A DNA stretch of 64,000 bases from contig JAMXLM010000037.1 in the NCBI GenBank assembly GCA_024280995.1, forward strand, positions 1 through 64,000, given 5' to 3'. The notes under the pieces were generated by a model. That model was not told the origin of the DNA, did no database searches, and worked only from the letters and a program-made list of their open reading frames with translations. The position numbers and the translations under genes were made by a program. The number at the start of each line of letters is the position of its first letter. Position 1 is the stretch's first letter. The stretch is from Candidatus Dormiibacterota bacterium. Its GTDB lineage: Bacteria > Chloroflexota > Dormibacteria > Dormibacterales > Dormibacteraceae. Shown piece by piece: positions 17,605-37,171 of this stretch.

Positions 17605-17613
17605 AGAAGCACC

Positions 17614-18129: not shown

Positions 18130-18164
18130 CTGCCGGACCGCGTGATAGTTCGTTCACCCACCCG

Positions 18165-20190: not shown

Positions 20191-20281
20191 ATTGTGGGTC
20201 GCGGCGCGGCCATGCGCCGCCGATCTCCGTGATGACGAGCCTGAGTCGGGGTGGATCCAGCCTCAGAGCATAATTCGCGCC

Positions 20282-20701: not shown

Positions 20702-20898
20702 GGACCGGACGCCGGAGAGGCACTCGCGCCCAAACGTCCCAGGGCCAGGTTTGGGCAAGTCATGGGGCAAACGACCTAAGAGCTTCCTGACTTTGACCTT
20801 GTTGGCCACTGCCACTCGGCGCGACCCTCTTGAGGCGGCTGAGGGAAGCCAGCCGCTCGGGCGGCCTCATCTGCCCGGCACGAAGGAAGGAGTGCACC

Positions 20899-21723
20899 GT
20901 GACTTTTCGTATGTCCAGGCTCGGCCTGTTGAAGGCGAGCATCGGCATGGCCGTGTCCATATCGGTCGTGGCAGTGATGCAGACCGGCGCGATGGCGGCC
21001 GAAGGAAACCCAGACTACCTCGGCATTCTGTCTTCGACGCCGGCAACGGGGTTTATCCCGTCGCCGAGTTTCTACTCGCTGAATCAGAACCAGAACACGC
21101 TGACTTTCGACCTGAACGTGACGAACCTCACCAATGTCCAGCAGTCGATGACCCTGGAAATGGGACTCGAGCACATCACCACCTACCTGGTGAATGGTCA
21201 GACGATCGACATCTCCAACGGGCAGCCCGGCGTGGTGAATGGCGTGATCGTCGACGGTCAGTTCAACAACAATCTTTCAACTGAGGTCCGCGACCCCAAC
21301 CCCACCTTCACGCAGTTGAACATCGGCCCCAACCAGACTCAGACGCTTCACTTCAGCCGCACGTTCGCGGCGGGCGGCTGCGGCTACTACGAGGTCGACC
21401 TTGCGAAGCAGGGTCTCATAGCCCAGAAGGGCCTCTCCGGCTTCGAGATTCGGGTCCTCGGCTGTGGCGCCAGCCCTTCGCCGTCGCCTTCGCCGTCGCC
21501 TTCTCCGTCGCCGTCGCCCAGCCCCAGCCCCATCGCGTCACCGAGCCCGTCGCCCCACCCGAGCCCTTCGTCCCACCCGACCCCCAGTCCGACGCCCTTT
21601 GGAGGGGTGCTCGCCAACACCGGCTCTGACAACCCGAATGAGCTGCTTGGCCTGATCCTCCTGGTCGTGGGCGCGTCTGCCCTCGTGGGTGGAACCGTCG
21701 CCTGGAGGCGTCGCAGGCTCTAG
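20899..21723 (+). CDS. Secreted surface protein with Pro-Ser linker and LANTG sorting signal
   Basis: Signal peptide; (SP)n linker; C-terminal LANTGSDN + TM + RRRRL. Confidence 0.8.
   Translation: MTFRMSRLGLLKASIGMAVSISVVAVMQTGAMAAEGNPDYLGILSSTPATGFIPSPSFYSLNQNQNTLTFDLNVTNLTNVQQSMTLEMGLEHITTYLVNGQTIDISNGQPGVVNGVIVDGQFNNNLSTEVRDPNPTFTQLNIGPNQTQTLHFSRTFAAGGCGYYEVDLAKQGLIAQKGLSGFEIRVLGCGASPSPSPSPSPSPSPSPSPSPIASPSPSPHPSPSSHPTPSPTPFGGVLANTGSDNPNELLGLILLVVGASALVGGTVAWRRRRL
21470..21600 (+). repeat. Low-complexity Ser-Pro coding repeat
   Basis: Tandem ccgtcgcc(t/g)tcgccg units. Confidence 0.8.
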
Positions 21724-22422
21724 TTGGATCGCGATTTGCGTGCCGCCACGCGGGCCCCAGCCCGCGCGGCGGCCGTCCACGGCCGGCGGCGTGTCCTAGC
21801 CCCATTTCTCGTTGCGATGGGAGCGACGTCATTGGTCGCCGGCGTGGTACTCCTCGTGACGAGCCTGGCGCCGATGTTCGTCCAACGATCGGACTCGGCG
21901 CTGGTCGTGGCTCCCCTCGCTGCGCCGGCGAGCATCGACCCCGAGCCATCAACCGCGGGCGTTCCGACTCCCTCGATCCCGGCTCGGCAGCCCGCCGTGG
22001 TTGCACCGCGCCCGGAGGGGCCGATTGACGGCGTCAGCTTCGTGCTTCGCATCCCGGTCATCGGCTACAGCGCGATGGTCCGCCAGGGCGTCGGAGCCAA
22101 CGTCCTGGCCAACGGGCCAGGGCACTATCCGACGACACCCTGGCCGGGAAGTCCGGGCAACGTCGGAATCGCCGCTCATAACGTCTACTGGCTCAGCTTC
22201 AATCGCCTCAAAGTCGGCGACCAGGTGCAGCTCGTAACCCAGCACGGGGTGTTCCTCTTCCAGATCACTCGTTCGTGGGTCACGGATCCCAGCGACCGCA
22301 CCGTGCTCGTCCCTACAAGCGATGACAGACTCACTCTGACCACCTGCTATCCCCTGTGGGCGGGAGCCTATGCCACCAAGCGCCTGATCTTCAGCGCTCG
22401 TGAGATAGGAGGCGTCGCTTAG
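21724..22422 (+). CDS. Sortase (class D/E-like)
   Basis: TTG start abutting previous stop; NGPGHYPTTPWPGSPGNVGIAAHN ... LTLTTCYPLWAGAYATKRLIFSA. Confidence 0.85.
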   Translation: MDRDLRAATRAPARAAAVHGRRRVLAPFLVAMGATSLVAGVVLLVTSLAPMFVQRSDSALVVAPLAAPASIDPEPSTAGVPTPSIPARQPAVVAPRPEGPIDGVSFVLRIPVIGYSAMVRQGVGANVLANGPGHYPTTPWPGSPGNVGIAAHNVYWLSFNRLKVGDQVQLVTQHGVFLFQITRSWVTDPSDRTVLVPTSDDRLTLTTCYPLWAGAYATKRLIFSAREIGGVA

Positions 22423-22431
22423 GCGCCGGCG

Positions 22432-23070
22432 TCAGTCGAACTCGACGGCGATGTACCCGTAGCCGTTTGCGCCGATAACCCAGGCGGTCGCGACGTAGCG
22501 ATAAGGACCAAGAATGTTCGCCTTGTGGTCCGGGCTGGCCATGAACAGATTGTTGATGGCGCCATCACTGATCCCGGCCGACCAGAAACCGACGTTTTCG
22601 CCGGACCGGCCGCCAATGCCGCAGGCCAGATCGCTGTAGACGCCGTTGGTGTGCGAGATGTATTCCTGAGCCGCCATACGGCGCGCGTTGCTCAAGGCCA
22701 CGTTATAGAGGCACGAGCTCCAGGTCAGCGGCGGAAGTCCGTACGCGGCGCGGTCCCGGTTGATCAGCGTTTGCTGGGCCGTCCGGACAACGATCTGCGG
22801 TGGGGCGGGCTGGCGGACGGGCGCGGAGACTACCGGCCCAGACGCCGGTGGCGTGTGTACGACGACAGGGCTCGGAGTCGGCGAGGGAGTTGGACTGGCG
22901 GCCGGCGCGTTGGATGGCAGCAAGACATCCGCGACTGACACGGGAAGCGCCTGGCGCGAGCTGGTCGGGATCTGAGCGCTGCCTGCTGCGTTCCGATCCA
23001 GCGCGTGGACTCCCGCCAGGAGCGCCAGCGACGTTGCCAATGCCGCGGCAGTCCAGGCGATGGCTCGCAT
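22432..23070 (-). CDS. CAP/SCP domain secreted protein
   Basis: LINRDRAAYGLPPLTWSSCLYNVALSNARRMAAQEYISHTNG...GENVGFWSAG...SPDHKANILGPYRYVATAWV. Confidence 0.85.
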   Translation of the reverse strand: MRAIAWTAAALATSLALLAGVHALDRNAAGSAQIPTSSRQALPVSVADVLLPSNAPAASPTPSPTPSPVVVHTPPASGPVVSAPVRQPAPPQIVVRTAQQTLINRDRAAYGLPPLTWSSCLYNVALSNARRMAAQEYISHTNGVYSDLACGIGGRSGENVGFWSAGISDGAINNLFMASPDHKANILGPYRYVATAWVIGANGYGYIAVEFD

Positions 23071-23180
23071 GACCTGTGGTCTGACGCCGCAGGTCGCCGG
23101 TTCTGGCGGTAAACGTTTGTTAAGGCCCAGCCCGGTGCTGCGTGAGCACCTGGCTGCGACGCTAGCCTTCTAGCCAACCC

Positions 23181-24002
23181 ATGACCCCCGACTCCGCGCA
23201 GCAAGAGCGCTACCTCCACGGCTACGAGGAATGGACTCGGCGCTGGATGGAGACCCGGACCGCAGAACGGGAGTTGGCGTTCCTGACTCCATACCTGGCG
23301 CCCGGGCAGGCCGTGATCGATTGCGGGTGCGGGCCGGGGTCGATCACCCTCGGGCTCGCGGACGCAGTAAGGCCTGGCGAAGTACTCGGCATCGACATCG
23401 AACCTCGGCAGCTGGAAGTTGCGCGATCCGCCGCAGACCGGCGAGGAACAACCAACGTTCGTTTCGAGCAAGCCTCCATCTACGAGCTTCCGGCACCTGA
23501 TGCCGGCTTCGACGTGGCGGTCGCGCATTTTGTGATCGAGCACGTGAGCGATCCGCCGCGCGCGTTGCGTGAAATACGCCGGGTGCTTCGACCTGGCGGC
23601 GTGGCCGCCATCAAGGATCCCTACTATCCGGGCTTCGTCTTTCGGCCGCTGACGCCAGAGATCGTCCTGTTCCAAGAGCTCATGGCGCGATGGCAGAAGC
23701 ACAACAACGCAAGCACCACCTATTCGGCCGACCTTCGCGCCCACCTGCTCGCGGCTGGGTTCAGCAGAACTCTGGCCACCGCGGGAATGGAAGCCGTGGC
23801 CGGAGCGGGACAGGACGCGATGGTCTTTCGAATGATTCTCGAGAACCAGGTCAAGGAGCCGAGCTTTCGCGAGACCGTGCTCCAGCAACGCTGGGCCACC
23901 GAGTCTCAGCTCAACGCGATCAGCGACTCGGCCTCAACATTCGCCGAGAGGCCTGACGTCTTCGGCTTCATCGTGTTCGTTCAGGCGCTCGGGTTCGTCT
24001 GA
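23181..24002 (+). CDS. Class I SAM-dependent methyltransferase
   Basis: AVIDCGCGPGSITLGLADAVRPGEVLGIDIEPRQLEVAR. Confidence 0.9.
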   Translation: MTPDSAQQERYLHGYEEWTRRWMETRTAERELAFLTPYLAPGQAVIDCGCGPGSITLGLADAVRPGEVLGIDIEPRQLEVARSAADRRGTTNVRFEQASIYELPAPDAGFDVAVAHFVIEHVSDPPRALREIRRVLRPGGVAAIKDPYYPGFVFRPLTPEIVLFQELMARWQKHNNASTTYSADLRAHLLAAGFSRTLATAGMEAVAGAGQDAMVFRMILENQVKEPSFRETVLQQRWATESQLNAISDSASTFAERPDVFGFIVFVQALGFV

Positions 24003-24092
24003 GGTAGTACGGCCCGAGGCATCGGAGACGGTGAGCGGCGCTCGAACCAACTGACTTCTGTTCGCCGGTTGACTCGAACGATGGCAAATCGG

Positions 24093-24683
24093 CTAACGCC
24101 GCAGCAGTCGCGCACTGATCGTCTCCTCCAGGTGAGCCCGGTATCTCTTCAAGCTCCACCCTCGCTCGACGACCAGGTACTCGTACTGGTGCGGCGAGGC
24201 GATCGCCCACGCCACGTCGGCGGCAACCTCCTCGGCGATCCCCGGTCGCAAGCGCCCCTCGCCAGCCAGCTTCCTGAAGATCGCGCCCATCCCGGCGCGC
24301 CTCGAGTCAAGACGCCAGCTCCACATCTCTGCTGCGACCGGGTCATCCAGCCGGGCCGCGTACACCAGCCGTGATTGGGCGTACACCTTCGGATCGACGG
24401 CGGCAGCCGTATCGAGCATCGCGCGCAACATCGCAAGACCGTCCGTCTGAGCGGATACGTTGCGAAGGCGTTCCGGCAGGCCCGCCAACTCTTCGCTGCG
24501 CGAGATCATCGCGCGCAGCAGGCCGGCCTTGGAACCGAACCGGTCGTACACCGTCTGCCGGCTGACTCCGGCGGCGGCGGCGACCGCCTCCAACCCGACG
24601 CTGTGATAGCCGCTCTCGAGCAGCAGCTTGTTGGCGGCGTCGATGATCCGCACCTTCGTTCTTTCGGCTCTAGAACTTGACAT
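24093..24683 (-). CDS. TetR/AcrR family regulator
   Basis: IIDAANKLLLESGYHSVGLEAVAAAAGVSRQTVYDRFGSKAGLLRAM. Confidence 0.9.
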   Translation of the reverse strand: MSSSRAERTKVRIIDAANKLLLESGYHSVGLEAVAAAAGVSRQTVYDRFGSKAGLLRAMISRSEELAGLPERLRNVSAQTDGLAMLRAMLDTAAAVDPKVYAQSRLVYAARLDDPVAAEMWSWRLDSRRAGMGAIFRKLAGEGRLRPGIAEEVAADVAWAIASPHQYEYLVVERGWSLKRYRAHLEETISARLLRR

Positions 24684-24723
24684 CCTGTCTACTTTTCAAG
24701 TATCTTGACACCCTGTCCAGTTT
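24676..24723. promoter_or_regulatory. Tandem TetR-operator-like repeats with overlapping promoters
   Basis: CTTGACATCCTGTCTACTTT (24676-24695) and CTTGACACCCTGTCCAGTTT (24704-24723); each contains GACA-N3-TGTC; TTGACA-N18-TATCTT on + strand. Confidence 0.65.
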
Positions 24724-24748
24724 ATCAACCACAGGAAGGAGCGAGGCA

Positions 24749-25234
24749 GTGAAGGTCCGAATCGAAGCGTCGATAGTTATCGACCGTCGAGTGGAAGAGG
24801 TGTTCGACTTTGCAGCGATTCGACACCGCGAGAACCACTCGCGGTGGGACGTTGCCGTCAGCCGGCTCGAGCCCGAGACCACCGGCCCGATGGGCCTGGG
24901 ATCCAGGTTCACGATCGTGCGCCGAAACCTGGGCCGGGAGGAGGCTCGGACTTTCACGATCACCGGGTGGGAACCGCCGCGGCTGATGGAAATGCGCACC
25001 GAGTCATCGGACTTCGCACTGGTTTTGCGAGGGGAGTACGAGGCGATAGGTGCAGGCGCCACTCGCCACAGGTTGATCGGTGAGGCCACCGTGGCCGGCG
25101 CGCGAAGCCTGCTCGCACCTGTGATGAAGGTCAAGTTCTCCCGCGACATCCAGGAGAACTTGCGGCGCATCAAGGCCCTGGTCGAGGCCGAGGCATCGAC
25201 TCGCCAGGTGAGTGCAGCGATCGGAAGTGCGTGA
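24749..25234 (+). CDS. SRPBCC/polyketide cyclase-like protein
   Basis: AGGAAGGAG ribosome-binding site, GTG start; VKVRIEASIVIDRRVEEVFDFAAIRHRENHSRW. Confidence 0.8.
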   Translation: MKVRIEASIVIDRRVEEVFDFAAIRHRENHSRWDVAVSRLEPETTGPMGLGSRFTIVRRNLGREEARTFTITGWEPPRLMEMRTESSDFALVLRGEYEAIGAGATRHRLIGEATVAGARSLLAPVMKVKFSRDIQENLRRIKALVEAEASTRQVSAAIGSA

Positions 25235-25329
25235 CCACGTCGTCACGCGCGATACCTCCTGCTAACGGGAGGAGGGTACTGCGGCTGAGTAGAAGCAGCC
25301 CCTACGATCCAGCTCGCGGGGCCGAATCG

Positions 25330-26103
25330 CTAATGCTTCCGGCGAAATTTGTCCGGCGGCAGCGCATTGGTACCGCGCGGGCTGATCTCATCCTCTAGGG
25401 CTCGGATCGTGGCGGCATAGCCGACCTGCTCGGTGGATTGTGAGACCTCTTGCGGTGAGACCGTGTCGACCATGAAGCGCTGAAGCCGCCGCCCGCTGAA
25501 CCAGGACGCTCCCCGGAGGATGCCAAGATACGCAAGAACTACGACGACGGCTATGCTGCTCGCGCCGCCGTAGTGCAAAGCGGTGGCATAGATCGCTCCG
25601 GATAGGATCCAAACCGCAAATAGCACAACAGTCAGCAGGCGTGACTTGCGTAGGACCAAATCGCTCCGCAGGATTGTTCCCTCACCGGCTGAGACTATTG
25701 CGCCGTCGGCGATCCAGCTGGAAGGACGGCGCGAAAAGTCTCCGATCAGGCTGACTTGAAAGTGTTCTCCCTCAACCCAGCCAACTGCCCGTCCCCCAAT
25801 TGGCAGGAAGACGGCATAGGCCGGCTCAGGTCTGACCTGTTCCTTCAACAGCTTGACGACCTGGTTCGTTGGGAGGGGCACCCGCAACTCGAACCGGCCG
25901 AGCTTCCACAACCACCACGGAAAGCTTGCCGGCGCGAAGGTTGAGTGGGCTGGTTCGTCGGTTTTCACTGGTTCCCCTGGGGAGGCAAGCTCGCTCCACG
26001 CGAGCGGCAAGTCTCCAGTTAGAGGCGGTCGCAGCCGCGACGAGAACTCGAGGAACAGCGACCCGAGCAACGCCACGAAGAACAGCACCGAAAGGATGGG
26101 CAC
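25330..26103 (-). CDS. Hypothetical membrane protein
   Basis: 257 aa, N-terminal TM and central TM pair. Confidence 0.65.
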   Translation of the reverse strand: MPILSVLFFVALLGSLFLEFSSRLRPPLTGDLPLAWSELASPGEPVKTDEPAHSTFAPASFPWWLWKLGRFELRVPLPTNQVVKLLKEQVRPEPAYAVFLPIGGRAVGWVEGEHFQVSLIGDFSRRPSSWIADGAIVSAGEGTILRSDLVLRKSRLLTVVLFAVWILSGAIYATALHYGGASSIAVVVVLAYLGILRGASWFSGRRLQRFMVDTVSPQEVSQSTEQVGYAATIRALEDEISPRGTNALPPDKFRRKH

Positions 26104-26132
26104 GAGCTTGGAAGCTTACGGCAGGCGAATTC

Positions 26133-26180
26133 GGTTCGCGTTGTGGACCTCGAGCGTAAGCCCGGGTGTAATCAAGCTTT
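26133..26180 (+). repeat. Array site S1 (degraded): IR arm + tail signature
   Basis: GGTTCGCGTTGTGGA then CGAGCGTAAGCCCGGGTGTAATCAAGCTT (compare S7 tail). Confidence 0.6.
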
Positions 26181-26246
26181 AGGCGCCGAGCCAGAGAACG
26201 TCGTGTCGGCCGTACGGCAATGCCCAGTTATGTGCACCAGCCAGGC

Positions 26247-26951
26247 TCATGCCCAGTATTCAGCTGAGAGTCCGCGAACGTCGATCTCCAGGTTGAGCTC
26301 ATCCATCGGTGGTCGAGAAAAGAACCACCGCAGACCAGGGCGACTGAGTTCGGCAAACCTCGGCAACCCAGTCTCGGCCAACAGCTCATGGTCTGCCCGA
26401 GTGCCATAGAGCTGAGCATCTGTCGCCTCGCCCCAGCTCACCCCCAGCGCGTTCAGGCGCTCGTCAAGTGTCATCACGATCGCTTTCCAGTACGCCGCGA
26501 GACCGCCCTCGGTCCCGGGCGGCTCAGGCGCGCCTGAGACCACGAAGGTGCTTCGCGGCGCTTTCCCCTCGACCGTATGGCAAAACGCATGAAGGCATGG
26601 ATGCGGCGGGGGCTCGACCTCTGGTGCCACGTTTGTCCGCGCGGGCGCGAGCTTGCCGTCGACCCTCAGGCCCCACCGCTCGTGCTGAGCGACATATGGG
26701 CGGTTGAATTCGTCGAAACCCCGTCGGGACAGTGGTTTCGGAATGCGCAGCTCCATTGCGCACAACGCAGCGATCGGCCGCCCGGCGGCGTGCAGCGTTC
26801 GCTCCACCAGACGGAAGCCTTCATCGAGAGGCGTGTGGTGCGGCGCGTGCACACGGACGATGTGATAGCCGGGCTCGGCCACTACCCCTGCTGAGAATGG
26901 GCCGTTGTCGGTGGGGAGGAATCGGTATCCGCCCGCTGAGTTGATTTCCAC
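26247..26951 (-). CDS. RidA-like hypothetical protein
   Basis: GTG start VEINSAGGYRFLPTDNGPFSAGVVAEPGYHIVRVHA; the longer ORF start (TTG 27017) lies inside repeat S2. Confidence 0.5.
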   Translation of the reverse strand: MEINSAGGYRFLPTDNGPFSAGVVAEPGYHIVRVHAPHHTPLDEGFRLVERTLHAAGRPIAALCAMELRIPKPLSRRGFDEFNRPYVAQHERWGLRVDGKLAPARTNVAPEVEPPPHPCLHAFCHTVEGKAPRSTFVVSGAPEPPGTEGGLAAYWKAIVMTLDERLNALGVSWGEATDAQLYGTRADHELLAETGLPRFAELSRPGLRWFFSRPPMDELNLEIDVRGLSAEYWA

Positions 26952-26987
26952 GGTGCAAACGTAACCCCGCGCCCATGTCTCGGGATT

Positions 26988-27050
26988 GTGGGCCGCAGTT
27001 TCCGTAACGCGAACCAACCGACGATGACCGCTCGGCCGATCAGCCTCTGT
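26988..27050 (+). repeat. Array site S2: core + IR' (attL-like)
   Basis: GTGGGCCGCAG (26988-26998) + TTTCCGTAACGCGAACC (26999-27015) + ...GGCCGATCAGCCTCTGTG. Confidence 0.75.
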
Positions 27051-27121
27051 GCACCGGGACCCAAGTCGATCCGGCTCTGACTGAGTGGCACCGTAGCCGG
27101 TTAGTGTTCTTCCGAGACTAG

Positions 27122-27574
27122 GTGAAGCCAGAGCGAGAGAGGCTAGGACCGGAATTCGTCAAGTTGCGCCTCCAGGCGCCAGACGGAACGGTCGAAACGC
27201 CTTGGGCAATCGACCTTGGGGGAGGGACGTACAGGCTGGACAACATTCCGTTCTTCGCCTATGGCGTTTCAGCTGATGACATCGTTCAAGCAGCGCCTGA
27301 GGCGGATGGCGTGCTCAAGTTCATGAAGGTTGTGAAGCCATCGGGCAACCGCACCCTGAGGATTGCCTTTAAGGACAAAGTCACGAAGACGGAGCCGCTG
27401 CTCATCCGCCTGACAGAAATGGGTGTCGGCTGGGAGGGGGCCTTCGCAAAGCTGATCGCTTTGAGTGTTCCTCCTGAAACCAATGTTCAGAAGGTCGTCG
27501 ATCTCCTGAATCAGTCAGGAGAAGACTGGGAATTTGCGAATCCGACCTGGGAAGGGCTCCACTCCGGCGAATGA
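27122..27574 (+). CDS. DUF4265-like protein
   Basis: FVKLRLQAPDGTVETPWAIDLGGGTYRLDNIPFFAYGVSADDIVQAAPEADG. Confidence 0.75.
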   Translation: MKPERERLGPEFVKLRLQAPDGTVETPWAIDLGGGTYRLDNIPFFAYGVSADDIVQAAPEADGVLKFMKVVKPSGNRTLRIAFKDKVTKTEPLLIRLTEMGVGWEGAFAKLIALSVPPETNVQKVVDLLNQSGEDWEFANPTWEGLHSGE

Positions 27575-27613
27575 CACAGCTTGCAACAAACTGGACCACC
27601 GCGCTCGCGCCGT

Positions 27614-27680
27614 GGTAGGGGCCGTAGTTTCCATAACGCGAACCAGTTGACGGTGATTGGTCGGCCCTTGACCCTTCGCT
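27614..27680 (+). repeat. Array site S3: degenerate core + IR'
   Basis: GGTAGGGGCCGTAG + TTTCCATAACGCGAACC (27628-27644). Confidence 0.7.
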
Positions 27681-27799
27681 GGCGACCGAATGCGAAGGCG
27701 GTTAGAAAGAGTCCGACGGCCAACGTCACGCCGCCGGCGATGAACGCAGTGGTCAGAGATGGTAATCGCCGGGGCGCGAGCTAGGGCACACTTCGTGCC

Positions 27800-28585
27800 G
27801 TGGGTCGCAGGAACTTCGACTCGTTCGAAGAGGTGTTGAGATCGGTCGCCGAGCACAAGGCTGCCGCGGCCAAGGCGCACCTCGCCGGCGCCGACCCTAC
27901 CGCCGAGAAGCCTCGTGATGTGTACGTCGGCGCCTGCGCGGCGATCGCGCAGGCCTTGGTGCCTGACGGATTTCGCTACCTCAAGAGCAAGCACGCGCTC
28001 GACCGAATGGTCGGAGCATTTGTTCACCGCGTGTCCTTCCAGTCCAGTGCCGAGAACATCGCCGGTCAAAGCGTCGTTTTGTGGATGCATGCCAATGTGC
28101 GGTGCAAGGACCTGGCAATTTGGCGCTCTCATCAGTCAAACCCACTCCGGACGGATGATTGGGTCGCTGGCGGTATGGTCCACAACCTCACCCGCGAGCA
28201 CGCCATGATCGAATGGCAGCTCGCCGACCCGAAGTCGCGTTCCGCCGTGATCGGGGATGCGCAGGAGTTCGCACGGACCGTCGTCCTCGGATATTTCGCA
28301 CTCTTCGAGGATCCCCAGCGGACGGTGGCCGAACTACTCACGGCTCAGATCAACGCCTTCAGCATCGGCGATCAGATCGAGTTTGTGCTCTGCTTCGCGG
28401 GGCCACAGGAGGCCAATCAAGTCCTGCAGCGCTTCGTCGAGCATCGAAGCGACCTGCACAGCCAGATGCGTCGCGCAATAGAACGCGTCGATCGAGAAGG
28501 CTTTCCCGAGTACTCGCCCAGCGGCTATGCCGACGTGGTGGCGTGGGTTCGTAAGGCCTATCGGCTCGAACCAGCCATCGGGTAG
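27800..28585 (+). CDS. Hypothetical protein
   Basis: 261-aa ORF filling the interval between S3 and S4. Confidence 0.6.
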   Translation: MGRRNFDSFEEVLRSVAEHKAAAAKAHLAGADPTAEKPRDVYVGACAAIAQALVPDGFRYLKSKHALDRMVGAFVHRVSFQSSAENIAGQSVVLWMHANVRCKDLAIWRSHQSNPLRTDDWVAGGMVHNLTREHAMIEWQLADPKSRSAVIGDAQEFARTVVLGYFALFEDPQRTVAELLTAQINAFSIGDQIEFVLCFAGPQEANQVLQRFVEHRSDLHSQMRRAIERVDREGFPEYSPSGYADVVAWVRKAYRLEPAIG

Positions 28586-28653
28586 GCGCCAGTCAGCGAG
28601 CTGCCAGCGTTGGGGTGCGCCTAACCCAGTTCGCAAGATGATTAGGCGGCCTC

Positions 28654-28722
28654 GGTTCGCGTTATGGAAAAGCGCCCGAATTGGTGGTGGGCCGCGGTGG
28701 ACTCGAACCACCTGCCTCCGCG
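28654..28722 (+). repeat. Array site S4: IR + core + tRNA-Ile 3' fragment (attR-like)
   Basis: GGTTCGCGTTATGGAAA (28654-28670), then 38 nt (28685-28722) identical to tRNA-Ile 37096-37133. Confidence 0.85.
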
Positions 28723-28835
28723 GGAATCGGCGTAAGCCAGCGCGTCGCGCAAGTTTTCTGGCGCGCCGCGTCATGCGATGCAACTGATCCGACGTCGAGG
28801 CCCGTGACTTCACCCCTGCGGTCCTCGCACGTCGA

Positions 28836-31820
28836 ATGCAAGGGGGTAGACACTTGCACGCGAGCAGTTTCGTTCGAGAACCGCGACAGGTCGCACCGAT
28901 CGTCAAGACCCCAGAACCAAAAATTCGGATTCGACGCTCGCTCAAGCGCGCGTTGGTGATCGCATCGGTTTGCCTGGTCCTGGCAAGCGGGCTTTTCAAC
29001 GGGTCGTTGTCGATTCACGCGATCGCCGCTGTCAGGCAGGGCGGCATCAACGTCGAACCGTCGGCACGACCGTGGCGTTACGTCGGCGCAAACCCGGATT
29101 CCTGGTGGTGTGTGCAGCCGAACTGCATCACCGATCCAACCGCGCTGATCCAGACCGAGCTCAGCTACGCGCATCAACTCGGCGTCGCCGACCTCCGCCT
29201 GGAGTTTCCGTGGTTTCTGCTCGAACCCGGCAACGGCGTATACGACTGGTCACGCGCCGACCAGATCATGGTCGCCGCGCAAGCCGCGGGCGTCACGATC
29301 CAACCCATCATCGTGTTCACGCCGGCGTGGGCCGGAGCGAACACCACGGTGGCCCCGAGCGCATCAGATTTTTCCGCGTTCGTGACCACGTTGGTGCGTC
29401 GGTACGACCACCAGATCCCGGTCATCGAGATGTGGAACGAGGCCGATCACGGCCATTACTGGAACTCGGGCGAGACCGCGTATGTCCAATCGATCCTCAA
29501 CCCGGGTTACGCGGCTGTGAAAGCCGTCGACGCCTCGATCAAGGTCGAGGTCAGCGGGACGGCGAACGACCCCACGACCAACGGTTGGCTGACGACGCTC
29601 TATTCGCTTGGCGCGCAGTACGACGTCATGTCGTTTCACAACTACTCCGGCAGCGCGCTGTCCGAGGCGCAGTCGATCCAGTCGGTGATGGCCGCGCACA
29701 ACGACAGCAGGCCGATATGGCTCGGCGAGTACAGCGTCGATTCAACGCTCGGCGATCAGTCGTCCCTCATCACGAGCGTGCTGACGAGCGCATCACCGAT
29801 CGCGATGGCGCAGTGGTACAACCTCCGCGACGACGGCGCGTACAACTGCTGCCCTCCAGCGCTCGCCGTGTCGGCGAACTGGGGAGTCATGACGTCGAGC
29901 TATATGGCAAAACCGGCGTTCGCGACGATGCAGTCCCTGCTCACCGGGGCGTCGCCCGCACCTTCACCGTCGCCATCTCCATTGCCATCAACGATGCCGG
30001 CCCCGTCACCGTCTCCAGCCCCTTTACCGTCGCCATCGTCATCGCCGTCGCCGTCGCCTTCGCCCTCACCATCGCCGGCGCCGTCATCGTCAAGCATTGG
30101 CGGGCTGCACGTCGTCGGTAACCACCTCGTCGACGGCAACGGCAACGCCGTGGTCCTTCACGGAGCCGACATGGCGGGCACCGAGTTCGTCTGCGCGCAG
30201 GGCTGGAGCTCCGATCCGTTCGGCGGCCAGGCTGAGGACGACCCTCTGACGTTCGCGGCGATGAAGTCGTGGAACGTCAACGTCGTCAGAGTCCCCCTCA
30301 ATGAGGACTGCTGGCTCGGGATCAACGGCGTCAAGATCTCCGCGGCCACCTACCAGGCCACAATCGTCAAGCTCGTTGCCGACCTGCGTGCCGCAGGCTT
30401 TTACGTCATCGTCGATCTGCACTGGTCGGCGCCCGGCTCGCAACTGGCGTTGAGCCAGAATCCCGCGCCCGACGAGGACCACTCACCCGCCTTCTGGAAG
30501 TCGGTCGCGGCGACCTTCGCGTCCGACACCGGCGTGATCTACGACCTGTACAACGAGCCGTTCTTCTACTGGATCGCGCCGGGCGGTCCGGACGAAAACA
30601 CATGCCTCTGGAACGGATGCACGCTGACGCAGTACGAGACAGGCGGCACGCCGTTCACCATCACCGCGAACTGGCAGTCGGCCGGTTTCAACGAGCTCAT
30701 CGGCGACGTCCGCGCCGCCGGGGCGACGAACGTGATCATGGCGGGCGGCACCAACTGGGCGCGCGACCTTTCCGGATGGCTCGCCCACCGTCCGGCCGAC
30801 GGGAACACGATCGCGTCCTGGCACAGCTACCCCTCCGCCAACCCGAGCCTGCTCAGCGAGTGTGCGGCGCAGTGGTGCTGGGACCAGGTGATCGCACCGC
30901 TGGCGGAGCAGGTGCCGGTCGTCGTCGGCGAGACGGGCGACTCGACGGCGGGTCCGGAAACTTACCTGCCGACCTTCCTACCGTGGGCAAGCGCGCATGG
31001 ACTCAACGTCGCCGCATGGACCTGGAACGCCTGGAACAACTCCGACGACGTCCTCGTCACGAACATGCAGACAGGCGCGCCCACGGCTGGTGAGGGCGCC
31101 ACGTACAGGGGATGGCTCGGCGGGCTCCCTCCGGCGCCGTCGCCTCTGCCGTCACCGTCGCCGTCGGCATCGCCGTCCCCCTCGCCATCACCGTCGCCTC
31201 TGCCGTCGCCTCTGCCGTCACCGTCGCCCAGCCCATCCCCGTCGCCATCGCCGTCGCCCGCAGGCTCCGGCACCGTGATCTTCAGCGACAACTTCACGGC
31301 GGACAAGCACGGCACCACCCCATCGGGATGGAGCGTCGTCGGACTCAACTGCACATGGACCGTGAGCGACACCGCCCACTACCTCGCGCATGGCGGTTCG
31401 GTGGGAAGCCTGACCACAGGCAGCTCCGCCTGGTCGAATTACGCGATGAGCGTCTCGGTCAAGCCGACCGCTTGGACCAGTGAGGGCGACGGCGCGCTGT
31501 TCGCGGTCAACGGATCGAACCACTACAGCGTGCTGATCGTCGGCGGCACCCAACTCCGCCTCAACAAGTCGGTCTCCGGTGTGGAGACCAGCCTCGCGGC
31601 CGTTCCCTATGCCTTCACTTCGAGCAGCTGGTACACGATCAGCGCCTACATGAGTGGTGGCCTCCTCTCTGTCTACGTCAACTCGGTGCTGGTGATCCAG
31701 GTCCATGACTCGACGCTCACGTCGGGGGCCATCGGGCTCGAGGCCAACGATTCGGCGTCGTTCGACAACGTCACCGTCACTCAGCTTGGCGCTACGCCGG
31801 TCGCGGCCGGGCCGATCTGA
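28836..31820 (+). CDS. Secreted multi-domain glycoside hydrolase: N-terminal GH-A-like domain, GH5-like cellulase, C-terminal concanavalin-like domain, Ser-Pro linkers
   Basis: IEMWNEADHG; VIVDLHWSAPG...VIYDLYNEPFFYW...WHSYPS; (SP)n linkers; FSDNFTADKHGTTPSGW...; start uncertain. Confidence 0.8.
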   Translation: MQGGRHLHASSFVREPRQVAPIVKTPEPKIRIRRSLKRALVIASVCLVLASGLFNGSLSIHAIAAVRQGGINVEPSARPWRYVGANPDSWWCVQPNCITDPTALIQTELSYAHQLGVADLRLEFPWFLLEPGNGVYDWSRADQIMVAAQAAGVTIQPIIVFTPAWAGANTTVAPSASDFSAFVTTLVRRYDHQIPVIEMWNEADHGHYWNSGETAYVQSILNPGYAAVKAVDASIKVEVSGTANDPTTNGWLTTLYSLGAQYDVMSFHNYSGSALSEAQSIQSVMAAHNDSRPIWLGEYSVDSTLGDQSSLITSVLTSASPIAMAQWYNLRDDGAYNCCPPALAVSANWGVMTSSYMAKPAFATMQSLLTGASPAPSPSPSPLPSTMPAPSPSPAPLPSPSSSPSPSPSPSPSPAPSSSSIGGLHVVGNHLVDGNGNAVVLHGADMAGTEFVCAQGWSSDPFGGQAEDDPLTFAAMKSWNVNVVRVPLNEDCWLGINGVKISAATYQATIVKLVADLRAAGFYVIVDLHWSAPGSQLALSQNPAPDEDHSPAFWKSVAATFASDTGVIYDLYNEPFFYWIAPGGPDENTCLWNGCTLTQYETGGTPFTITANWQSAGFNELIGDVRAAGATNVIMAGGTNWARDLSGWLAHRPADGNTIASWHSYPSANPSLLSECAAQWCWDQVIAPLAEQVPVVVGETGDSTAGPETYLPTFLPWASAHGLNVAAWTWNAWNNSDDVLVTNMQTGAPTAGEGATYRGWLGGLPPAPSPLPSPSPSASPSPSPSPSPLPSPLPSPSPSPSPSPSPSPAGSGTVIFSDNFTADKHGTTPSGWSVVGLNCTWTVSDTAHYLAHGGSVGSLTTGSSAWSNYAMSVSVKPTAWTSEGDGALFAVNGSNHYSVLIVGGTQLRLNKSVSGVETSLAAVPYAFTSSSWYTISAYMSGGLLSVYVNSVLVIQVHDSTLTSGAIGLEANDSASFDNVTVTQLGATPVAAGPI
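29950..30095 (+). repeat. Ser-Pro linker low-complexity repeat 1
   Basis: ccgtcgcc/tcaccg units. Confidence 0.8.
31130..31265 (+). repeat. Ser-Pro linker low-complexity repeat 2
   Basis: ccgtcgcctctgccgtc units. Confidence 0.8.
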
Positions 31821-31834
31821 TCCGAAAGAAACAA

Positions 31835-31863
31835 GGGCTTGCCTCGTCGCATGAGGCAAGCCC
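31835..31863 (+). terminator. Terminator hairpin downstream of glycosidase
   Basis: GGGCTTGCCTC-GTCGCAT-GAGGCAAGCCC, perfect 11-bp stem. Confidence 0.7.
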
Positions 31864-31917
31864 TCGGGTAGCGGGCGTTTTCCGCACGAATTCGACGAGG
31901 GAAAGCCCGTGAACAGA

Positions 31918-31975
31918 GTGGTGGGCGCGGTTTCCGTGACGCGAACCAACCGGACTGGCTTGGTCGGCCGATTAG
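31918..31975 (+). repeat. Array site S5: core + IR'
   Basis: GTGGGCGCGG (31921-31930) + TTTCCGTGACGCGAACC (31931-31947) + ..TTGGTCGGCCGATTAG. Confidence 0.75.
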
Positions 31976-32031
31976 TCTGAGAAGAGGGATCGCGTATCGA
32001 GCGCCGTGCTTGTGCGGTGATCTCCATAGGT

Positions 32032-32535
32032 TCATGACTCCGCGCCCTCGCCTGTAGTCCTCCCGTACTGATCGGGTATCTGGCCCCAGCCGAAAAACGC
32101 CGTGGGCTTTGACGGAACCATGCCGAGTCGTTCCAGCGGGTCTATCAAGTCGTTTGACACCGTGCATCGGTGTGTCCAGTCGTCGCCCAAGTCGAAAATG
32201 TAGACAAACTGATCCCCGAGCGAGAGTCGACTGAGCTTTGACCGGCGGTCGTCAACGAGATCCTCTTCGGCGTCCTCGTCCACGGGTCCAACGCGAGTGC
32301 CGTCGCCCAGCTGAAACTCGTGGAGGTGACCGCGGTCCCACCGGGCAAAACCGTCATCGATCGCGTTTGCGAGGTCAGCGAAGGAATGATCGGGTGCTGC
32401 CGCGAACAGCCGACCTGGAGCAGGCGAGAATTCTTGCCCGCGGCCGTCGGTCAACTCCACCTTTATAGCCAGCCATCCGGCATTGCGCCGTTTGAAGGAG
32501 CGTCCAGGACCGGGCCGCCGACCCGTGCGCCGCAT
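32032..32535 (-). CDS. Plasmid pRiA4b ORF-3-like family protein
   Basis: IDDGFARWDRGHLHEFQLGDGTRV...LGDQFVYIFDLGDDWTHRCTV. Confidence 0.75.
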   Translation of the reverse strand: MRRTGRRPGPGRSFKRRNAGWLAIKVELTDGRGQEFSPAPGRLFAAAPDHSFADLANAIDDGFARWDRGHLHEFQLGDGTRVGPVDEDAEEDLVDDRRSKLSRLSLGDQFVYIFDLGDDWTHRCTVSNDLIDPLERLGMVPSKPTAFFGWGQIPDQYGRTTGEGAES

Positions 32536-32557
32536 TCACATGGACTATGATCTCAAG

Positions 32558-32614
32558 TAGGTTGCGTTGACTAATTAGTTAGGGCAGGATGCAGCAACCT
32601 ATTAGGTTGAGTTG
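32558..32614. promoter_or_regulatory. Repeated AGGTTG boxes upstream of fic-like gene
   Basis: TAGGTTGCGTTG (32558-32569), CAACCT-ATT-AGGTTG (32595-32609) followed by AGTTG. Confidence 0.5.
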
Positions 32615-32634
32615 TAGAATTTGGCTGCCATAAC

Positions 32635-33702
32635 ATGAGCAACCTACCCGAAAGCACGGCCAGAACGGCACGGGGACGACCCCCGCGCGAAGCGGTCCAC
32701 GCACGACTCAACTTCATGGTCGACGAGCTGAGGACCCGACTCGGCGGGTTGCCGCCCCCTGACGCGGCGGAGGGCATCTGGACCGACATGTGGTACCAGG
32801 AGGCTCACAGCTCAACAGCCCTCGAGGGCAACACTCTCGTGCTGCGAGAGGTTGAAGCACTTCTCCGCGAAGGCAAGGCCGTAGGCAGCAAGGAGCTCAA
32901 AGACTATCTCGAGGTCAGCGGCTACGCGGCCGGCGCCAAATGGGTGTACAGCCAAGCGTTGAGCGCTGGCCCGTGGACGAGCGGCAAGTTGCTCACCATA
33001 ACCGAGGTTCGACAAGTCCACCGACTGGTGATGACGCCCGTCTGGGACGTCGCGCCGCACCCAGACGCCTCCGAAGATGAAGCTCCGGGCAACTGGCGCC
33101 GCCATGACATCCGCGGCTTTAAACACGCAATGAAGCCGCCGGGCCATCCAGAGGTTCCGGCGCTGACGCGCGACTGGATTGATGGCATCGCGAACTTGCC
33201 TCGCGAATCGTCGCCAGTTGCTGAGGCGCTTGCTGCAAGACATGCCGCGTTCGAACGCATCCATCCGTTTATCGACGGCAATGGCCGCGTCGGTCGCTTG
33301 CTAATGAACCTCCTGCTGGTTCGGCTTGGGTATCCACCGGCCATCATCCAGAAGCGTCTTCGCGATCGGTACCTGGATGCTCTAAACCGCGCCGATCTTG
33401 GCGATCCCGGACCGCTGGGCGAAATCATCGCTCGGGCAGTACTCGACAACCTCAGCCGCTTCGTACTGCCCGCCGTCGCAGGCCCTGCCAGGCTTGTTCC
33501 ACTCGAATCGCTGGCCAGTAACGATCTGTCGGTGGTGGCTCTCCGGAACGCGGCACAACGCACGCGCCTGAAGGCGATTCGCGCGGAAGATGGTTCCTGG
33601 CGAAGCAGCCGACAGTGGGTCGACGAATACCGACGCGATCGCTATGCGACCCTGCGCCTGCCACGCAAACGAGGTGCGTCCACGGTGAAGGAATCGAAGT
33701 GA
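32635..33702 (+). CDS. Fic family protein
   Basis: HPFIDGNGRVGRLLMNLLL Fic motif; N-terminal inhibitory-type motif STALEGN. Confidence 0.9.
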   Translation: MSNLPESTARTARGRPPREAVHARLNFMVDELRTRLGGLPPPDAAEGIWTDMWYQEAHSSTALEGNTLVLREVEALLREGKAVGSKELKDYLEVSGYAAGAKWVYSQALSAGPWTSGKLLTITEVRQVHRLVMTPVWDVAPHPDASEDEAPGNWRRHDIRGFKHAMKPPGHPEVPALTRDWIDGIANLPRESSPVAEALAARHAAFERIHPFIDGNGRVGRLLMNLLLVRLGYPPAIIQKRLRDRYLDALNRADLGDPGPLGEIIARAVLDNLSRFVLPAVAGPARLVPLESLASNDLSVVALRNAAQRTRLKAIRAEDGSWRSSRQWVDEYRRDRYATLRLPRKRGASTVKESK

Positions 33703-33719
33703 GGGCTCGCGGCGCTGTG

Positions 33720-33779
33720 GGTTCGGGTTATGGAAAGCCGGTCGAATTGGCGTGGGCGGTAGCTTCCGTAACGCGAACC
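33720..33779 (+). repeat. Array site S6: IR + spacer + core + IR' (attP-like/tandem junction)
   Basis: GGTTCGGGTTATGGAAA-GCCGGTCGAATTGGC-GTGGGCGGTAG-CTTCCGTAACGCGAACC. Confidence 0.8.
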
Positions 33780-33859
33780 AATTGAGCGTTGCGGGGCGAC
33801 GGATCAGCCTCTGTGGATCACGCCATCGGCTGCGTACCGGTTCCTCAGCACGCCTGGCA

Positions 33860-34486
33860 TCAAGCTCGCTGACGGACGGCCACGAGCAGCCAAACGCCCA
33901 TGACGATTCCCCAGAGTAGGAGTGGGAAGAAGGTGAAGAAGGCCAGCGACGTGATCCCGAGGATCCCGATGACCAGCGTGGGCCAGCGGAGCCAAGCCGG
34001 CAGCGGCGGCAGATTGGCGATGGCAACCAATATCAGTGCGAAGCCGAGAAGCGTGGCGGCTGACTCGAATAGAACCTCGGTGCCGCTGATCCCGATCGCA
34101 TAGGTGATGTTCGGCGGGATATTGAGGTTGGTGCCTGCCTCATTGTTGCCGACGGGCTGGGATACGAAGATGCCCCAGCTCACCGCAAAGCAAATGGCGG
34201 CACCGAGTATGAGGCCCCAGATCACTCGAGGCCAGATCGAGCCGGAGTCCTCCGACTCGGCTTGTCGACCGAGGTAGGCGCCCAGGCAAACGAGACCTGC
34301 GGCGCCGAGCAGGCCGCCGAGGGCCGTCACGAGGGCGAGCACGATGTGCCCTGACGAAATGTAGGCGGCGGAGTCGGCGGCGGCGTAGTTCCCGCCCATG
34401 GGGCCACCAACGAAAAGGGCTATGAACGTGAGTACGCCAAAGGCGATTGAGCCGATGCCGGCGGCGATAGTGGCCGATCGCTTCAT
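33860..34486 (-). CDS. Hypothetical membrane protein
   Basis: Multiple TM helices, 208 aa. Confidence 0.7.
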   Translation of the reverse strand: MKRSATIAAGIGSIAFGVLTFIALFVGGPMGGNYAAADSAAYISSGHIVLALVTALGGLLGAAGLVCLGAYLGRQAESEDSGSIWPRVIWGLILGAAICFAVSWGIFVSQPVGNNEAGTNLNIPPNITYAIGISGTEVLFESAATLLGFALILVAIANLPPLPAWLRWPTLVIGILGITSLAFFTFFPLLLWGIVMGVWLLVAVRQRA

Positions 34487-34586
34487 GCGCCAAGTCTATT
34501 TATCCGGCGGGGCCGCGCCACATTGACTCGAGCTAGTGGACCTCAGTTCCTGTAAAGGCCACCGGCCCCGCCGGCCGCCAGTCGAT

Positions 34587-34730
34587 GGTTGGCGTTACGC
34601 AAAGCCGGTCAAATTGAAGTGGGCGGCGGTGGACTCGAACCACCTGCCTCCGCGGTAACTAGCCCTGAGCGCTGTGCGTCAAGAGTGGGAACCCCGAGCG
34701 TAAGGCGGGGTGTTATCAGGCTTGGAACGG
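34587..34730 (+). repeat. Array site S7: IR + core + tRNA-Ile T-arm copy + tail
   Basis: GGTTGGCGTTACGCAAA (34587-34603); GTGGGCGGCGGTGGACTCGAACCACCTGCCTCCGCG (34619-34654, 1 mismatch to tRNA-Ile); tail CGAGCGTAAGGCGGGGTGTTATCAGGCTT. Confidence 0.8.
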
Positions 34731-34735
34731 GACCA

Positions 34736-35281
34736 TCAGTCCGAGTCGGAAAACGCGAGGTGACGACCGCACCTAACACAGCGGAAGAGGTAGGCAGTCG
34801 GAGAGTGGTCCCGGCTGAGGCTGTAGAGATACGACCGCGTCTGCTCATATGACCAGCCGGACTGGTCGTTTTCGTGGAACAACATTTCCCACGCATCCGG
34901 ATGCGCGCCGGCGGCTGATCCGTCGACCGGCCCGAGAAAGGCCGCAGCGTCGGCGCAGTGATATAACCAGTGGTCTTGCTGCCACGAGCTGAATCCGGGC
35001 GTTCGTTGTGACACTTCCAGGCGGACAGCTTTCGGGACGTCAGCTGGTACGCCCCACCCAATATCAGTGAACTCGGCGTCAAACTTCTCCGCGGCGGTCC
35101 CATCGGCGATGCACCAAGGGCAAATCGCATGGTGTAGCTCTTCGGTCGAGTAAACGGGCCCTGTGTAGATGAACCCTCTTACTTGGCCGCAAGCCCGGCA
35201 CTGAGCATCAGAGGGCTTTATCGAACCCGTAGCGACGGGATCTGGGTGGTACTTAAAGATTGGAAGGCTAAAGGCAGACAT
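34736..35281 (-). CDS. CbrC-like family protein
   Basis: LPIFKYHPDPVATGSIKPSDAQCRACGQVRGFIYTGPVYSTEELHHAICPWCIADGTAAEKF; start trimmed to ATG 35281 outside repeat S8. Confidence 0.8.
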   Translation of the reverse strand: MSAFSLPIFKYHPDPVATGSIKPSDAQCRACGQVRGFIYTGPVYSTEELHHAICPWCIADGTAAEKFDAEFTDIGWGVPADVPKAVRLEVSQRTPGFSSWQQDHWLYHCADAAAFLGPVDGSAAGAHPDAWEMLFHENDQSGWSYEQTRSYLYSLSRDHSPTAYLFRCVRCGRHLAFSDSD

Positions 35282-35315
35282 CGCCGCAACGATATCTGTC
35301 CTCGCAGGTTGTGTG

Positions 35316-35343
35316 GTGGGCTGTACCTTCCGTAACGCGAACC
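35316..35343 (+). repeat. Array site S8: core + IR'
   Basis: GTGGGCTGTAC + CTTCCGTAACGCGAACC. Confidence 0.75.
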
Positions 35344-35398
35344 GGATGACGGTCGCCGGCAAAGTCATTGCTATTCCGACCTGCGGCAGGGGCGTGAA

Positions 35399-35911
35399 TT
35401 AGCGGCGGCCCGTACCGTTGTGGCCGTCGCCGTAGGCCTGGCGCCATGCCTTCAAAGCAGCTATCAACTGTGCGGTTGGCACTACTGTGTTGTTGGGAAG
35501 GTTTCGGTCGGCTGCCGACACAGCGCGGGCAAGGCCAGTCAACGCCTGGCTAAGCAGCCCGCTGGGCGCATGGCCGGAGACAAAATCGAAATTCACCCAG
35601 CCGGTCAGTGCGTAGAACGGACCGGGCCTAAATCGGTCGACATCGTCCCAGCGATACGTCACGCCTCCCACGGGCCCAGACCATGTAAAGCCGTCCGGCG
35701 TCAAGAGCCAAGGGCGCGACGATCGGAGGTTTACAGCCGCCAACGCGGTGAACACACCACAACAGGCCGCGAAGATGCCAGTGGCGGCGTCATGGGCGGC
35801 TAGAGCCGCGTAACCGCTGCCAACGAAACCTGCCCCGAACAGGATGATCCCGGTGATCCACAAGATCCTTCGACGCATGACCGGAATCTCAAGCCTGTCC
35901 GAGATGGCCAA
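35399..35911 (-). CDS. Hypothetical membrane protein
   Basis: Two TM helices then SSRPWLLTPDGFTWSGPVGGVTYRWDDVDRF. Confidence 0.6.
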   Translation of the reverse strand: MAISDRLEIPVMRRRILWITGIILFGAGFVGSGYAALAAHDAATGIFAACCGVFTALAAVNLRSSRPWLLTPDGFTWSGPVGGVTYRWDDVDRFRPGPFYALTGWVNFDFVSGHAPSGLLSQALTGLARAVSAADRNLPNNTVVPTAQLIAALKAWRQAYGDGHNGTGRR

Positions 35912-36027
35912 GTCGAAAGCTGGGCTCGAGGCGATGGCACGCCAGTGTAGAGAAAGGCTTTCAGCGCGGCAGCCGACGGCTGCTGCAGCGCTGATCGGTG
36001 AAACGGCAAGTGCGGTTTGGCGCCTTC

Positions 36028-36163
36028 GGTTCGCGTTATGGAAAGCCTGCCGAATTGGAGTGGGCCGTGGTGGACTCGAACCACCTGCCTCCGCGTTGTC
36101 GCGGCGTGAACGGCGTGGCGTCGAATTCTTGATCGCGAGCGACGTGGCGGGGCGTTATCAGCA
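36028..36163 (+). repeat. Array site S9: IR + core + tRNA-Ile T-arm copy + tail
   Basis: GGTTCGCGTTATGGAAA (36028-36044); GTGGGCCGTGGTGGACTCGAACCACCTGCCTCCGCG (36060-36095); GCGTTATCAGCA (36152-36163) identical to tRNA-Ile 37131-37142. Confidence 0.8.
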
Positions 36164-36250
36164 GTGACTTTCGACTGAGCCGCGCAGGCGCTACTGTCGC
36201 CACGATGAGTCCCGACCTCGAGGTGAGAGTCACCTAGCATCTAGAGATCG

Positions 36251-37048
36251 ATGGCGACCGTCGGTGGTGACTCAAGAAGGAAAGACGACGCGGCCGCCGC
36301 CACGAACGTAAGCGTGCTGATGGCGGACCAGATCGCCTACTACCGAGCCCGGGCCCCAGAGTACGACCAGTGGTGGGCGCGGGAGGGTCCATCTGATTTC
36401 GGTCCTGAGTTCAACGCGGCCTGGGCTAGCGAGATCGATGCCGTGGGGGCGGTTCTCAGCGCCTTCAATCCAACCGGTGAGGTCTTGGAGCTGGCGGCAG
36501 GCACCGGAGGACTGACCGTTGAGCTAGCACGATGGGCAAAAGCGATCACGGCAGTGGACGCATCTCCCGAGGCGTTGGAGATCAACAGGGCCAAGCTGTC
36601 TCAGGCCGGGATTCCGGTCGAATACGTGACCGCAGATCTCTTCGCGTGGGAGCCGTCGCGGCGCTACGACGTCGTCTTTTTCTCGTTCTGGCTCTCACAT
36701 GTCCCAGTCGAGCGATTCGACGCCTTCTGGGCATTCGTGGCTCGGTCTCTCCGGCCCGACGGACGCTTCTTCTTTGTCGACAGTGCCGGCCCCGAATGGA
36801 GTCGCTTCTCTGGAGCGAGCGAGGCCGACTCGGAGTCGACTGTCCGGCGCGTACGAACACCCACGGATGTTGCGGCGGATGTTGCGCTCCGAGAGGTCGC
36901 GGACGGGCGTCAGTTCCACATCGTGAAGCGTTTCTGGACGCCCGATGCACTCCGAGGAGAGTTGGAAGCGCGGGGTTGGGAGGCGACCGTAGCCGAAACC
37001 GCATGGGCCTTCATCTACGGTCATGGTCGGCGTTCGGACCACCTATAG
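36251..37048 (+). CDS. Class I SAM-dependent methyltransferase
   Basis: EVLELAAGTGGLTVELARWAKAITAVDASPEALEINRAKL. Confidence 0.9.
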   Translation: MATVGGDSRRKDDAAAATNVSVLMADQIAYYRARAPEYDQWWAREGPSDFGPEFNAAWASEIDAVGAVLSAFNPTGEVLELAAGTGGLTVELARWAKAITAVDASPEALEINRAKLSQAGIPVEYVTADLFAWEPSRRYDVVFFSFWLSHVPVERFDAFWAFVARSLRPDGRFFFVDSAGPEWSRFSGASEADSESTVRRVRTPTDVAADVALREVADGRQFHIVKRFWTPDALRGELEARGWEATVAETAWAFIYGHGRRSDHL

Positions 37049-37095
37049 GTTCCGGCAATGTCGCCCCGAAGCCGGATCGGCTCCGCGGCGATTCA

Positions 37096-37171
37096 TGGTG
37101 GGCCGCGGTGGACTCGAACCACCTGCCTCCGCGTTATCAGCACGGCGCTCTGCCAGTTGAGCTAGCGGCCC
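37096..37171 (-). tRNA. tRNA-Ile (GAT), CCA encoded
   Basis: GGGCCGCTAGCTCAACTGGCAGAGCGCCGTGCTGATAACGCGGAGGCAGGTGGTTCGAGTCCACCGCGGCCCACCA folds as a cloverleaf. Confidence 0.95.

Follow-up and report, generated by a model that had tools for sequence, protein, structure and literature searches.

Small cassettes stacked at a tRNA-Ile gene in Dormibacteraceae: putative attachment sites of a large serine recombinase

Introduction

By which process are small, unrelated genes lined up beside a single tRNA gene, with copies of one repeat between them? The question is raised by the tRNA-Ile locus of a Candidatus Dormiibacterota bacterium, one of a group of soil bacteria not yet cultured (Chloroflexota; Dormibacteria; Dormibacterales; Dormibacteraceae; assembly GCA_024280995.1). 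"The window" refers to the whole stretch of DNA that was analysed: 64,000 nucleotides, contig JAMXLM010000037.1, positions 1 to 64,000 of the forward strand. Its genome is a 3.02-Mb metagenome-assembled genome (MAG) of 46 contigs, and all relatives sampled are MAGs or fragments. A first-pass annotation of the window proposed that small non-autonomous cassettes had been inserted site-specifically, one after another, at the tRNA; it did not recognise the site family.

The reading adopted here is that the repeat serves as attachment site for a large serine recombinase (LSR) directed at tRNA genes. Cassettes devoid of recombinase would be moved in trans, and a second site family is interleaved with them. 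The probability of this reading is put at about 0.85. It is carried by site anatomy, polarity, linkage of an LSR to the site, attP/attB geometry and cassette-precise sharing, all as read from sequence.

Anatomy and polarity of the sites

The window was scanned with the arm query GGTTCGCGTTAYGGAAA, up to three mismatches being allowed. Ten matches were found, all between 26133 and 36044 (0.21 expected by chance); the rest of the window gave none at this threshold. Nine of the ten are true arms. The other one, S1 in the first-pass series of about nine copies (S1 to S9), has three mismatches, is followed by CTCGAGCGTAAGCCCGGGTGTAATCAAGCTT and is the remnant of a different site family: the repeat family is real, and S1 belongs elsewhere. 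The spacer, the 11-bp core, the inverted arm and the T-arm copies described for it are all present, and the series does end at an intact tRNA-Ile(gat) gene.

Site anatomy was drawn from 149 arms at about 60 loci. Two types of half-site are found: P1, GGTTCGCGTTACGGAAA-CTACGGCC/C (101 copies), and P2, C/AC...TTTCCRTAACGCGAACC (37 copies); a slash marks the centre of the site. The window carries five P1 and four P2 half-sites (Table 1). Full two-arm sites are found at cassette-cassette junctions (n = 14). Conservation of P1 is 1.74 bits at +1, 0.84 at +2 and about 0 by +7; this collapse just past the central CC fits the 2-bp crossover expected of the serine type.

The order tRNA/P2...cargo...P1/ is found in all 45 sites located 3' of a target tRNA (Ile-gat, Leu-gag, Val-tac). 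Within multi-site loci, 108 of 109 sites agree in polarity. The cassettes (n = 67) have a median length of 895 bp and 37 contain one open reading frame (ORF); ORF strand relative to the tRNA is evenly split (53:54). They are stacked in tandem at one anchor, recombinase-less members included.

Most small cassettes have 60-bp sites, as against 50 bp in the autonomous element described below. P2 half-sites are bimodal in length, about 25 and about 35, that is, one helical turn apart, and the class of about 25 is the sole one tied to a known LSR. The two lengths, ~25 versus ~35, with VRVTE versus VRVME arms, are found at L153, L152, L162, L058, L059 and other loci.

The linked recombinase

In one relative, G026, two elements of about 4.3-4.4 kb have P2 and P1 at their ends and each encode an LSR of ~500 aa. 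This enzyme (P0001) has Resolvase, Recombinase and Zn ribbon domains, the architecture expected of an LSR attachment-site system, and is physically linked to the site: the P2 arm constitutes its final codons, V-R-V-T-E. In the integrated state, the reading frame continues into the antisense of the tRNA.

No serine recombinase was found in the genome of the window, whose sole recombinase is one Xer-like tyrosine recombinase. LSR C-terminal relics are found at P2 on another contig of this genome (L044, ...FRLPATLVRVTE) and in G010, G019 and G015. Since the genome has such a relic and no LSR, the small cassettes there are not autonomous and were probably mobilised in trans.

Distant LSR relatives (37-54% identical) abut tRNA-Lys, -Ile, -Arg and -Ala, and an IMG/VR contig encodes a relative at 76%, which abuts an intact tRNA-Leu(gag) and comes with a P2 arm. 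Phage and plasmid collections yielded distant LSRs only (<60% identity), and a scan of viral contigs for P1 plus core gave no match. Among LSR relatives on viral contigs, L208 (IMG/VR) abuts a tRNA, and the 3' ends of L209 and L210 read into tRNA-like antisense.

Geometry of attP and attB

The joined ends of the autonomous element of G026 give GGTTCGCGTTACGGTAGGTACGGCC/CACCACTGCTTCCGTAACGCGAACC: 50 bp, symmetric at 18 of 25 positions, centre CC. The element thus has the ~50-bp symmetric attP with a non-palindromic 2-bp centre of LSR systems. In the LSR attB model, the zinc-domain motif takes up positions 16-24 of the half-site in attP and positions 11-19 in attB (Rutherford et al., PMC3783163). 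A 9-bp motif, GTTCGCGTT, is found at 16-24 on both attP arms and its counterpart, GTTCGAGTC, at 11-19 in the tRNA T-arm. The motif is therefore 5 bp closer to the centre in the tRNA attB than in attP, as this rule predicts. The T-arm matches the motif at 7 of 9 positions (next best match, 4 of 9).

Three intact tRNAs are directly followed by P2: Ile(gat), Leu(gag) and Val(tac). All have GTTCGAGTC and CC/CAC. tRNA-Lys, -Arg and -Asn were considered as targets and dropped because they lack CC/CAC; P2 ends located there join other sequence or a displaced tRNA-Ile half.

A second site family

The window interleaves two mini-element families, designated A (the sites described above) and B. At least 44 displaced 3' halves of tRNA-Ile are found in the arrays, most of them preceding a ~70-nt motif of loose conservation (consensus ...ctgAGCGcTGtGC...GAGCG...GGtgTTATg.GG). 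The T-arm copies at S4, S7 and S9, as well as S1, are explained by these family-B halves; the copies noted in the first-pass annotation do exist, not as a variant of the same repeat. To judge from sequence, family B targets the anticodon stem-loop of tRNA-Ile. Its displaced tRNA 3' half accompanied by an intact tRNA is a feature shared with the tRNA-targeted islands of tyrosine integrases. None of the tyrosine-recombinase loci sampled has a tyrosine integrase beside tRNA-Ile, and no family-B recombinase was found. Besides the three halves of the window (Table 1), halves are found in tandem in L046 (6373, 6978, 9936, 11644, 13699, 18049).

Mobility and distribution

A 0.8-kb cassette starting with CACCATCAGGCTTTTGGCGC immediately follows tRNA-Leu(gag) in G016 and, in a different genus (G031), tRNA-Ile; the copies are 95-97% identical. 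It recurs after a displaced tRNA-Ile half in G018 (and G075). It ends at P1 in G016, G018 and G075; in G031, similarity stops shortly before the arm position. In G017, a P2-P1 module is found on two contigs, 90% identical and with both ends at sites. For cross-genome matches (>=85% identity, >=300 bp), 50 of 100 match ends lie <=45 bp from a site. The share of array bases this close is 5.5%; this expectation is a simple fraction, no formal test being attached to it.

The tRNA-Ile locus was compared across relatives. Its flanks are conserved (left genes, about 6.5-12.4 kb of the window; right genes, 37.2-43 kb) and the content between them differs: it spans 24.7 kb in the window, the figure for G013 being 10.5 kb and that for G026 about 28 kb. 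The region is thus no fixed syntenic block. The variable region is larger than the first-pass extent, 26133-37171: the conserved left-flank genes stop near 12.4 kb. Within it, the ~13.7 kb from 12415 to 26130 are non-syntenic, carry no P1/P2 sites and are part of the same hypervariable locus. Together with the uniform polarity at tRNAs and the cassette-precise sharing across tRNAs and genera, this variability supports the sequential insertion that had been proposed.

Random dispersal, as in a family of miniature inverted-repeat transposable elements, is not observed. The arm is found in three places in the genome of the window, two of them arrays beside target tRNAs; outside the tRNA-Ile locus, its only occurrences are at C9, immediately 3' of tRNA-Leu(gag), and at C15, where a single relic lies close to tRNA-Asn. 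Of 110 genomes of the class, 32 carry the arm, nearly all of one family, with reversed-pattern controls near zero; in the same genus, 16 of 17 genomes do. It is also found in two genomes of another family (G075, G059). This second-family occurrence is not relied on because a contig of G075 (L054, 1-1502) is 99.9% identical over 1.5 kb to one of G003 (L140, 1-1502), which belongs to the genus of the window's genome, the two MAGs being assigned to different families; L054 is likely misbinned in G075.

Proposed mechanism and alternatives

The circular form of a cassette would carry attP, made of the P1 half (GGTTCGCGTTACGGAAA-CTACGGCC) and the P2 half (CAC...TTTCCRTAACGCGAACC). The LSR would cut at the central CC and recombine attP with attB, the 3' end of the tRNA gene. 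Within attB, the zinc-domain motif would be supplied by the T-arm GTTCGAGTC, and crossover would take place at the CC of tRNA positions 71-72. The product would be tRNA/P2-cargo-P1/flank, in which the tRNA regains its 3' end. As insertion recurs at one tRNA, cassettes would stack up, the newest adjoining the tRNA. The LSR acting on the cassettes of the window would be supplied in trans, arriving on an autonomous element or a prophage. The second mini-element family, which targets the anticodon loop of the same tRNA-Ile, is interleaved with the LSR cassettes.

Several points weigh against this mechanism. Catalysis, circular intermediates and action in trans are deduced and not directly observed. 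The genome of the window has no serine recombinase, and apparently intact copies of the closest LSR are found in G026 only. Most P2 half-sites are 35 long, not 25, a geometry that the intact LSR element does not show. In many cassettes bounded by P1, no P2 can be recognised: 84 of 101 P1 sites lack an adjacent second arm, and a search for a second motif shared by the starts of cassettes without P2 gave only CGAA at +15 (9 of 84). Some arrays may be misassembled or misbinned, all genomes being MAGs or fragments.

The alternative that survives best is that the arrays are fossils: LSR elements whose recombinase was deleted in place, now immobile, with genes fixed by drift. LSR C-terminal relics at some P2 ends and the lack of LSR in most array-bearing genomes would fit. 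Nevertheless, the 95-97% identical cassettes at different tRNAs and in different genera, the uniformity of the arms despite diverse cargo and the duplicated module of G017 with its ends at sites all speak for movement, and fossil arrays are considered improbable.

The 3' ends of tRNA genes are the usual target of tyrosine integrases. The sites could thus be those of conventional tRNA islets, the arms being arm-type sites, and several relatives do carry tyrosine integrases. However, the only tyrosine recombinase of the genome is Xer-like, no tyrosine integrase is near P1/P2 sites in the sampled loci, the P2 arm lies within LSR coding sequence, and the attP/attB offset and 2-bp crossover are of the serine type. 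This explanation is rated very unlikely.

Modules mobilised by the single Xer of the host (similar to pdif modules or to IMEX, elements exploiting Xer) would fit two points: Xer is the one recombinase found in the genome, and the 5' part of the arm presumably bears a weak resemblance to Xer-type half-sites. The arms are nevertheless 15-27 bp apart, not 6-8, the target is a tRNA, and the linkage to an LSR would be left unexplained; there is little chance that Xer moves these units.

Single-gene cassettes, inverted arms able to form a 17-bp hairpin and a fixed anchor would evoke integron-like cassettes whose site is a new single-stranded hairpin of the attC type. This reading is hardly credible given the LSR linkage, cargo that is not co-oriented, an inter-arm length that shifts by about one helical turn between classes (which suggests binding of duplex DNA) and a genome without integron integrase, its sole tyrosine recombinase scoring 225 bits as XerC and 81 of the 265 needed for an integron integrase.

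Beyond the attachment-site reading itself, a broader proposal, in which the system is the integron's counterpart among serine recombinases, has roughly even odds: a clade of LSRs would read the universal tRNA T-arm as zinc-domain motif, and a large pool of one-gene cassettes devoid of recombinase would exploit it in trans, shuffling arrays at several tRNAs across a family and competing with a second cassette family for the same tRNA.

Relation to known systems

The closest known kind is the composite islands made of staphylococcal cassette chromosome (SCC) and pseudo-SCC elements (PMC6243372, PMC6222049). The two share LSR-type sites (Ccr LSRs in staphylococci), a target at a conserved gene's 3' end (rlmH/orfX in staphylococci), tandem stacking and recombinase-less elements. 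They differ in the target (several tRNA isoacceptors, not rlmH), the unit size (mostly 0.5-1.8 kb with 1-2 genes), the single LSR and the absence of any serine recombinase found in the host of the window. Neither ccrA/B nor ccrC was found. The best NCBIfam matches of the LSR are CcrB, CcrC, XisF and CcrA; it is not an SCC member because these scores are far below the cut-offs (CcrB, 172 bits vs 900).

Phage serine integrases (A118/LI, TP901-1, SPbeta YokA) are alike in domain architecture, PDB sequence relatives, 50-bp attP, zinc-domain motif and 5-bp shifted attB, whereas attB is here the T-arm/acceptor end of a tRNA. The serine integrases surveyed in mycobacteria do not have tRNA genes as targets (PMC10654092); tRNA is not mentioned in an LSR survey (PMC10083194). 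Integrons have small-cassette arrays at a fixed anchor and, as presumably here, a trans-acting recombinase; the arrays differ from them by serine-type sites, mixed gene orientation, a tRNA anchor and the absence of any IntI found in the genome. The sites were compared with attC and its R/L boxes by eye only. The tRNA islands of tyrosine integrases likewise restore the tRNA 3' end; family A differs by its serine recombinase and its crossover at tRNA positions 71-72. No paper on such arrays was found in the literature searched, which is not proof of absence.

The targeting of tRNA genes is a niche normally credited to tyrosine integrases. The present data suggest that a serine integrase can use the tRNA T-arm as target, and that integron-like cassette arrays evolved twice, the second time around an unrelated class of enzyme. 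Through features common to many tRNAs, an active LSR would reach several tRNA genes and so would be useful for genome engineering in uncultured lineages.

Features of the window and gene content

Table 1. Features of the tRNA-Ile locus in the window.
Coordinates	Strand	Feature	Content or evidence
12415-37095		Whole hypervariable interval of the tRNA-Ile locus	Between conserved left and right genes
26133-26179	+	S1, family-B site remnant	Neither P1 nor P2 arm
26991-27619		Family-A cassette E5, without P2	P1 26999-27015; DUF4265 gene 27122-27574
27620-28689		Family-A cassette E4	P2 28654-28670 (half-site 36); P1 27628-27644; ORF 27800-28585
28690-31923		Family-B segment	Displaced tRNA-Ile 3' half ~28687-28722; cellulase/GH gene 28836-31820
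31924-33754		Family-A cassette E3	P2 33720-33736; P1 31931-31947; PRiA4_ORF3-like 32032-32535(-); Fic 32635-33702(+)
33720-33779		Full two-arm site, 60 bp, at the E2/E3 junction	Arms 33720 and 33763 form a single site
33755-34621		Family-A cassette E2	P2 34587-34603; P1 33763-33779; ORF 33860-34486 without Pfam match
34622-35318		Family-B segment	Displaced tRNA-Ile 3' half ~34619-34654 with B motif; UPF0167/CbrC-like gene 34736-35368
35319-36062		Family-A cassette E1	P2 36028-36044 (half-site 35); P1 35327-35343; small ORF 35399-35911 without Pfam match
36063-37100	+	Family-B segment	Displaced tRNA-Ile 3' half 36060-36095; methyltransferase gene 36251-37048
37096-37171	-	tRNA-Ile(gat), intact	T-arm and acceptor 3' strand = attB half-site, centre between 37100/37101; ARAGORN, Rfam, half-site geometry

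A second tRNA gene of the window, tRNA-Trp, is located at 37672; Rfam detected nothing in the window beyond the two tRNAs. The cargo of the window comprises DUF4265, PRiA4_ORF3, Fic, UPF0167/CbrC, cellulase and methyltransferase; that of other arrays includes PemK/MazF-like toxin, TIR, adenylate/guanylate cyclase, TetR, SnoaL and P450. The arrays form a dense, searchable reservoir of accessory genes in Dormibacterota (Fic, PemK/MazF-like toxin, TIR, cyclase). Candidate defence or toxin cargo includes a cyclase with a Pycsar-model match, TIR, Fic and PemK/MazF-like proteins (L064, 5304-6641; A1 members).

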